Shown here: one piece after another, positions 7,801-10,800 of the stretch
Layout: the number at the start of each line of letters is the position of its first letter
How positions within the stretch are numbered: position 1 is the first letter of the stretch
The notes under the pieces: generated by a model
What the model saw: the letters and a program-made list of their open reading frames with translations, nothing else
Database searches by the model: none
What the model was told of the DNA's origin: nothing
Origin: Conchocele bisecta
Taxonomy: Eukaryota > Mollusca > Bivalvia > Lucinida > Thyasiridae
Length of the DNA: 64,000 nt
Reading direction: 5' to 3'
Assembly: GCA_029237695.1 (NCBI GenBank)
Contig: CM055266.1
Location: 118,891,581-118,955,580 of the forward strand
Translations under genes and position numbers: made by a program

Positions 7801-10800
7801 ATTGTTGTGAGTAGCGATCTAAGGGTTAATATTGTAAGGGACATTGGCATTCTGAGGTGGCAAAATATACCCGGGCCCGCTCTTGGCACAACACTGAATA
7901 CACATTGAATACACATTGTTATTTACCCTAACATCACTAATAAGGCAATGTAGATATAGCATTGATATTGTTGTTGTCTGCTGTTTTTATCATCAAAAAC
8001 ATGCTTTGAAAGCACTTTAGAATAATTTACCCTTCAGAATCATTTCCAACGGAAATGATTCTGAAGTTCTGTCAAAAGATGTTTTTATTGAGAAATAAGG
8101 CAAGATACGAAAGCAACAGCAGACGACAATTGTTGCGAGTAGCGGTCTAAGAGTTCAACACTTTTATGTATTCTCGTGTATCTCGTGTCGTATATCCTGG
8201 TTTTCCACGTTCACAGACACTATGAGGAGAGGGAACTTTTGGTGCAACAAGAACGGGCCAAGAAGAGGCTGGAGTTCGAAAATCAAAAGTTTCGACTTCA
8301 GAACCAAATTGAATTCGAGCGATCAAGGGACACATTGGGTATGTATTTTTCGTATCTCTTGGCTTGAAGCATATGGCACCCAGCAAATATGCGGCTGTGA
8401 CTGGACACGTGAGGCTTATAGGATTTGTGACCAGTGTAGCTCCTGATCAAATAACACATTCCTGTAGCCCGATAATGAGTTATATTCCAGGGGGCCGTTT
8501 CACTAAACTTAGTACCACGAAAATGTTTGCAAGTGCAAACTTATGATAGTCTGTAAATTTCACATTAACAATGTTTTCTTGTAAACAATTAATGGATTTA
8601 CATTTATTGAGCATAGGCTGCATATGCAGCCTATGCTCAATAAATGTAAATCCATCAATTGAAATTTCCAGAGATCCTAATTTTGCACTTACGAACATTT
8701 TAGTCGTACAAAGTTTAGTGAAACGGCCCCCTGGTTGCTAGCATGATGGGTGTTTCTTTGGCGAATAGTGCAGAACCTGATCAGACTGTGCGGATGCTAC
8801 ACTGGTCACAAAACCGATAAGCCCCATTTCTCCAGTCACAACCACATATGACAAATGCTGTATGCTCTGAATAGATGATTGCTTTTCATGGTATAATTTA
8901 AGTTTCAGCGAACATGTGCGATTTTTCATGAAATTTATTTACAGAAACTGATGTTGTCTACAAATGATGTCGAGAGGTGACAAAATTTTCGCAGCAAATG
9001 CGAAGAAAATGTTACCATCTTTCGTTGATATAAATATTTTTCATGAGGTATATCGCACATGTTTTAGGTACAAAATCACTTGGTGTGTCTCATACATTGC
9101 AGCGAACGTGCTGAAGTGGGAGAAGGCAGTCACAGACGATGAACGCGAACTGGAGAAAGTAAAAAACGATGAGCAGCGCCACATGAAGGTGATCGACGAG
9201 GAAATGCAGAACCAGGAGCGATGCAAGCAGCAGCGGGTCACCGACAAGTCGATGGTGGACGACTTCGACGGCCAGGTAAGGGATGGGCCGTGGCCTCGGT
9301 GATATGGCATTGCACTTCAATACTGGAGGTTGCGAGTTCAATCCTCGTCCTAGGCGTGAAAAATACCAACATACAGTGGAACCTCCCTAAACCGGACACC
9401 CTGGGAGAACCCCAGGGTGTCCGGTTTAGGGCGGTTCCACTGTAAAACAAACAGGTGACTACTTCAAGACACGCGTGCATGCTTTGCGATCATGAACAGA
9501 CATTATCATTGGAGGTAAATGGCAATTAAATATATAAAAATGAAGTACAACTGTATTATTTCTCTCCTACTGGTCTGTTGGATGAGATTTTAAAACTGTG
9601 GCCTTAGCTGTTGCCGGGACGTTAAAACTCATTCAATTTTGACGGCCAGGTGAACGAAATCAAGAAGAGATTGAACGCCCAGAACAAGGAGATGGCGAGA
9701 TTACAGAAGGAGGCGAGTGGGTATGAGGCGAAGCTGGAACAGAAGAGGGCAGACAGGCATAGCTTGTTGAAAACTTGTAAGGTGAGCCGGTATTACTGTA
9801 TGCTCTTCAATAACCTCAAAATGGAAGCACATATATATATTTCAATAGTCAGTCTTTTATTGAATTTTCGAAATGTAAAGTGAGCTCCTATTGCTTTTTA
9901 TTATGCCCCCACCACCAAATGGTGAGGGGGGCATATAGTGTTACCGGCGTCCATACGTCCGTCCCAAAACTTAACACTGGGGTAAATATCTTATAATTTC
10001 TGTTTCCGTACATGGATCTGCTTGATATTTCACACACATGCATTGCTCTAATGTTCCTCTACCGCACTGCGACAAATCCACGATCGTCCTGCCCCTGCTA
10101 AGCACAGGGTCAAGGTCACATACTTGGTGCATTTGAAACCTTAGCACTCGGGTAAATGTCTTGTAGTTTCCTGTCATAGATCTGCTTGATATTTCACACA
10201 CGCATTGCTCTAATGGTCACAGTAAAGGACTGACTATTCGCCAGTTCGCTGTAAGGTTTAATTTTGTAATTGAAACTTTTATTTTTGCTCTCTTATTGGA
10301 TTTTCAACCACATGGTATTTCTCATGGCCCCCATCCATACAGCGGAAATATGGGATTCGATCCCGGCCTAAAATGACCTTAGCTGTTAAAAGGCCGCTAA
10401 ACAGCATTAAACGGTAAATATATTCTCATGGTCACAAATACTAGAACAAAGTTATACAGTGGAATCTCTCTAAACCGGACACCCATATCATTCTGAGCCA
10501 TAGTTGTGTGCTATGCGATCACGAACAGATAGTATCACCACCGAGATAAATAACCAAGAAACTCATCAAAAATAAGATCACAGGTGTTTTCTTGGTGTCC
10601 GGTTTAGAGGGGTTCCACTGTACTAAGGATTGCGTGTCTGTTCAGATGGACGACATCGTGGTGCCAATGAAGAAGGGCACAATGGAGGACATCACAGAGG
10701 AGACGGATGCGATGTCGGCCCAACTCGAGGCAAGCGGCACCGACACCCAGCTCGACAGTCTCAGCAGCCAGGGCGCCCGCAAGATCTACGAGAAGGAGGC

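Follow-up and report, generated by a model that had tools for sequence, protein, structure and literature searches.

Results

The SMC1 gene of Conchocele bisecta and its shortest intron

The stretch of Conchocele bisecta DNA analysed here (64 kb in its whole length, referred to as the window) contains the later part of the SMC1 gene, and 40 kb of upstream sequence were added for the gene model. The model was built against the protein of a relative (P0002) and comprises 28 exons separated by 27 introns, extending from a start codon at position -31203, which lies upstream of the window, to a point near position 19702. One misplaced model intron (score -44) was set by hand to 9782-10645, thereby fixing the 3' end of exon G. 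The intron between exons F and G is a phase 0 GT-AG intron of 374 nt with predicted splice sites. It is the shortest of the 27, the others measuring 454 to 6934 nt. The preliminary description had placed it at 9267-9653, an interval that takes in the outer ends of both flanking repeats; the intron proper covers 9276-9649. The features of the region are as follows (a slash marks the splice junction):

9103..9275, + strand: SMC1 exon F, upstream of the intron, ending ...D-F-D-G-Q
9267..9277, + strand: left copy of the target-site duplication, GACGGCCAGGT (direct reading, repeat search)
9276..9281, + strand: predicted splice donor CAG/GTAAGG; the target contributes GT, and the first two bases of the SINE contribute AG at +4/+5
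9276..9649, + strand: spliceosomal intron, phase 0, GT-AG (predicted)
9279..9371, + strand: 5' part of the SINE (tRNA-like head), sense orientation (family match, consensus)
9372..9552, + strand: MITE-like element nested in the SINE, left end palindromic, member of a dispersed family (repeat search, genome matches)
9553..9640, + strand: 3' part of the SINE and tail (family match, consensus)
9641..9651, + strand: right copy of the target-site duplication, GACGGCCAGGT (direct reading, repeat search)
9648..9649, + strand: predicted splice acceptor AG (GACGGCCAG/GT), with a low score on the profile of the gene itself
9650..9781, + strand: SMC1 exon G, downstream of the intron, beginning V-N-E-I-K-K; 3' boundary placed manually, with a check for GT

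Reading through the donor from exon F adds VRDGPWPR followed by a stop codon. Full-length protein therefore requires removal of the intron.

Other repeats were noted along the gene. At 19149-19702, the beginning of the final SMC1 exon recurs in several tandem copies with variations, so that more than one acceptor could serve there. At -23836 to -23780 (in L011, upstream of the window), part of an SMC1 exon (YDNAKAEMFKAEEDTQFNY) is present for a second time, directly before the modelled exon. An SMC1 intron carries a tandem simple repeat at about 15712-15867 that in translation gives a long series of RRP or SAS codons, and neighbouring introns hold two near-identical palindromic repeats of another foldback family (ATTTACATTTATTGAGCATAGGCTGCATATGCAGCC...) at about 8592-8657 and 11652-11722.

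The coding sequence is continuous across the predicted junction

The spliced SMC1 protein matches human SMC1A and aligns to it free of gaps from residue 835 to beyond the intron site, which falls between human residues 890 and 891 (counted by hand). Likewise, all 120 SMC1 proteins compared (the best 120 of 1157 found) were gap-free within 15 residues of the junction. This agrees with the preliminary description, in which splicing was said to remove exactly the insertion and to restore the coding sequence, insofar as splicing proceeds as predicted. The named relatives at the top of the matches are all bivalves (Dreissena, Sinanodonta, Mya, Pinctada, Solemya, Mizuhopecten and Mytilus), which points to a bivalve host, probably a heterodont. 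At the junction, six relatives (P0001-P0005 and P0007) read Q/VNEI or Q/INEI, among them Dreissena (P0004) and Mya (P0007), the latter with DDFEGQ/INEIKKR. The target sequence was probably coding before the insertion, since P0002, P0005 and P0007 read through the junction.

As to the intron positions of other SMC1 genes, a search of the viral-contig collection gave no SMC1 relatives that display them. The human SMC1A variant c.2421_2562del, as described in the available part of its report (PMC12562814), suggests the loss of one exon and hence a human junction after c.2562. The clam intron site maps to about human c.2670; no human intron junction near that position was found in the available published SMC1A material, which covers other positions.

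The intron consists of a SINE, a nested element and one target copy

The reading of this intron as a single SINE insertion was borne out by its content, which comprises a sense-strand SINE (9279-9371 plus 9553-9640), a nested element between the two SINE parts and a single copy of the duplicated target, and nothing else. We searched the genome (1.89 Gb, 1196 contigs) with a 181-nt query from which the nested element had been removed. The SINE proved to be a dispersed family with defined ends. A first look returned 4081 candidates genome-wide, and scoring 40 of these gave 43 matches, so that copy counts are lower bounds. Two of the matches were the SMC1 locus itself; the others were 77-89% identical to the query, many of them full-length. 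A consensus of 196 nt, beginning AGGGATGGG, was derived from 28 copies. The SMC1 copy differs from it at 21 of 179 positions (11.7%), compared with 4.1 to 13.9% (median 7.1) for the others; because the consensus copies were selected for likeness to the SMC1 copy, these divergences are a guide and not a date.

The SINE had also been described as headed by a tRNA. With the Rfam tRNA model, matches below the gathering score were obtained at 2 of 10 loci and none in the SMC1 copy, while ARAGORN detected no tRNA at any of the 28 SINE loci or in the 64-kb window. The head contains motifs, judged by eye, which we take to be A- and B-box-like. The tRNA origin of the head is thus weakly supported. No family name could be assigned to the SINE from the available portion of a paper on bivalve transposons (PMC10294476).

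The nested element was noted before as a palindrome that represented a further insertion. The insertion lies within the SINE as claimed; its palindrome (arms 9372-9405 and 9411-9444, 97% complementary) is only the left part of an element of ~181 nt (9372-9552), and we rejected the palindrome as a separate insertion. Other full-length matches of this element are 87-91% identical, and some of these extend into a right terminal repeat that the SMC1 copy does not have. The element, with its doubled inverted left end, occurs in many copies genome-wide, and terminal repeats related to it are present at 10451-10622 in the next intron.

An 11-bp duplication adjoins both ends of the SINE

The sequence GACGGCCAGGT is found at 9267-9277 and 9641-9651, with 11 of 11 nt identical, and directly adjoins both ends of the SINE (direct reading and repeat search). 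The earlier observation of CAGGT in each target copy is thus extended to an exact 11-bp repeat. Within the 64 kb, GACGGCCAG occurs at these two places only, both strands considered. The next, 12th base differs between the two sides (A at 9278 on the left, G on the right), and the 13th is A on both. On the left, this A is most plausibly the first base of the SINE itself, since among 25 other family members with a printed start 18 have an A before GGG, the A with which the consensus begins. Target-site duplications of variable length, a hallmark of SINEs, were seen across the family. Direct repeats of 6-22 nt, the shortest of them possibly due to chance, flank 20 of 28 other copies, and none were detected at the remaining 8 with the repeat test used.

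Sequence identity around the junctions was measured by comparing 12 nt before plus 6 nt after the junction on the donor side with the same stretch on the acceptor side. At the SINE-containing intron 14 of 18 positions were identical, as against 2-9 at the 26 other SMC1 introns. Among 650 mispaired donor-acceptor controls, the highest values were 12 and 11, each reached once. Note that the gene's other introns served as the control; counting AGGT/AGG repeat pairs across 60 kb was unsuitable for this because the count was swamped by repeats.

A strong donor and a weak acceptor

Splice sites were scored with a profile from the other 26 SMC1 introns, each being left out in turn for its own score. 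Each target copy contains a predicted CAG/GT site, in keeping with the proposal that the left copy serves as donor and the right copy as acceptor. The donor scored 11.5, above all 26 other SMC1 donors (2.3-11.4); a donor with the alternative ancestral base, G, at +3 would reach 9.7. The score of the acceptor, GACGGCCAG/G, was 0.7, which exceeded only 2 of the 26 others. The acceptor target sequence itself scored -2.5 in its exonic context and -0.1 when placed behind the consensus SINE tail, suggesting that the tail would aid the acceptor somewhat. A weak acceptor is to be expected, because it would be recruited exon sequence that has no pyrimidine tract, and a strong donor paired with a weak acceptor would be the pattern due from exon-derived splice sites.

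Four AG sites within the intron outscore the acceptor (9514, 4.5; 9429, 3.6; 9353, 2.8; 9328, 2.3). With the acceptor being weak, splicing may therefore be leaky, inefficient or partly aberrant. Taken further, the same scores would fit a SINE that is not spliced as predicted, with this copy of the gene damaged or internal sites used. We consider this very unlikely, as the insertion differs from the consensus of its near copies at 11.7% of positions and yet the surrounding sequence yields a complete 28-exon model in which the frames are intact; the locus therefore seems to have been functional throughout with the insertion in place.

The same SINE at other donor-like targets

A genome-wide search with the pattern CAGGTRAGGGATGGGYYGTGGCC, allowing up to 2 mismatches, returned 139 places; the reversed control returned none. 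We inspected 50 of these, namely L043-L072 (30 loci) and L073-L092 (20 loci, chosen from the 2-mismatch places that keep the target GT). Flanks and open reading frames were viewed for 23 of the first 30 loci and for all of L073-L092, and the other 7 were viewed for repeats only. The search covered donor-like targets in the sense orientation, with coding potential judged mostly by eye and homology tests performed on ten flank peptides. Two of these peptides passed the Pfam cut-off, and all three that were sent to PDB sequences found a match.

No second SINE-born intron was detected among the 50 of 139 donor-like places, SMC1 alone having evident coding sequence on both sides; with this mode of inspection misses are possible. 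The search for other introns bounded by the SINE and its target duplications, which had been proposed earlier, was thus without result in this sample. The term introner-type, also used earlier, fits the mechanism and not the family: an introner family consists of several introns in different genes made by the same element, and 1 of 50 inspected places qualified. The SMC1 case looks like a one-off.

The CAGGTR target is intact at ten of the inspected loci, SMC1 included. At five of these ten, a conserved exon starts at the acceptor to the right of the SINE:

L046: AAA ATPase (Pfam), repeat exact over 15 nt
L052: PP2A B56 (Pfam), repeat copies short or diverged
L057: pseudouridine-5'-phosphatase (PDB sequence), repeat copies short or diverged
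L062: importin-4 (PDB sequence), repeat copies short or diverged
L070: alanine aminotransferase 2 (PDB sequence), repeat exact over 14 nt

At two others (L044 and L050) the targets look like existing donors, without a family match, and at L045 and L076 no exon was seen. Insertions at acceptors duplicate or nearly duplicate the splice site and stay intronic, and these five suggest a clue to the tolerance of the SINE at exon edges. The share of CAGGTR-target copies at existing 3' splice sites (5 of 10) seems higher than chance would give.

At these five loci the SINE seemingly landed at the edge of an existing intron. The same could be proposed for SMC1, the SINE having entered an older intron at the donor or the acceptor, so that the duplication copied a splice site already present. 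There, however, coding sequence lies on both sides, and once the SINE and one repeat copy are taken away no older intron sequence is left; an older intron would have needed to vanish precisely. We therefore rejected this explanation for SMC1 as highly improbable. Alternatively, an AGGT-bearing piece of the exon could have been tandemly duplicated to give a mini-intron, which the SINE entered later. This origin follows a route of intron gain documented in the available text of PMC3443670, but it needs two events and is made superfluous by the SINE ends, which directly abut both repeat copies; such repeats are also present at 20 of 28 other family members. We regard it as exceedingly improbable.

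Discussion

The evidence favors, with high confidence, the birth of the SMC1 intron by insertion of a SINE into a coding exon, the insertion being spliceable through its own target duplication. In the proposed order of events, the SINE would have entered an SMC1 coding exon, presumably uninterrupted at this point, on the sense strand by target-primed retrotransposition. The target would have been a protosplice-like site (GAC GGC CAG GTR), with about 11-12 bp duplicated. The left CAGGT and the leading AG of the SINE would together have formed a near-consensus donor (CAG/GTRAG), and the right target copy would have provided the acceptor (CAG/GT). Splicing would take out the SINE and one target copy, leaving the coding sequence unchanged. 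The MITE-like element would have inserted into the SINE later.

This mechanism has already been proposed, and SMC1 appears to be a clear-cut instance of a route of intron birth that is known but has seldom been seen. Insertion of a transposon into AGGT was put forward as a general model of intron gain by Yenerall and Zhou (2012, PMC3443670), whose available text lists 35 transposon-insertion events in Oryza, Drosophila, Oikopleura and Zea. The Drosophila and Oikopleura events mean that transposon-born introns in animals were already known. As in that model, an AGGT-bearing duplication at SMC1 supplies the predicted donor from one copy and the predicted acceptor from the other, and the coding sequence is unchanged. 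In contrast to it, the SMC1 element adds bases +4/+5 of the donor, and the word SINE is absent from the text of PMC3443670.

Closest in the nature of the element is the rice catalase A gene (CatA), in which a SINE in the coding region became an intron, as cited in the available part of Sela et al. (2007, PMC2394776). The likeness follows that paper's description rather than splice-site detail, and CatA, unlike the clam gene, is a plant gene. The same source describes the "intronization" of Alu elements in human 3'UTRs, giving four alternative introns. There too a SINE insertion yields an intron in an animal, in contrast to SMC1 as alternative introns outside the coding sequence. New introns from SINE insertion had, by the remark of that source, been unreported in vertebrates before. 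Introners that co-opt both splice sites, for example in Florenciella (Gozashti et al. 2022, PMC9860276), resemble the SMC1 case in that the element itself brings no splice sites and both come from the insertion site. They differ in being DNA transposons that form several similar introns per genome, whereas SMC1 is a single case, with a SINE as the element. According to the available portion of that paper introners occur in two animal groups; the strings "mollus" and "bivalv" are absent from its main text. In the available portions of the open-licence literature, including PMC3257199, PMC3899998, PMC12124190 and PMC3488318, no animal coding intron born from a SINE was found.

The origin of new spliceosomal introns is an old question, and few clear cases stand behind many of the proposed mechanisms. 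The SMC1 case is unusually legible, as element, duplication, donor, acceptor and restored frame all lie within 400 bases of a conserved animal gene. The contribution of the SINE to the donor is a useful detail of this case. Moreover, the intron is datable through the divergence of its SINE and directly testable by the gene structure of related clams.

A broader proposal is that this clam SINE repeatedly makes splice-tolerant insertions, its AG start turning any CAGGTR target into a strong donor. We regard this as doubtful. If it were true, exonic hits of the SINE could become introns and hits at splice sites would be harmless. In that event the SINE would supply new introns at a low rate throughout an entire animal lineage, and SMC1 would be the first case seen.
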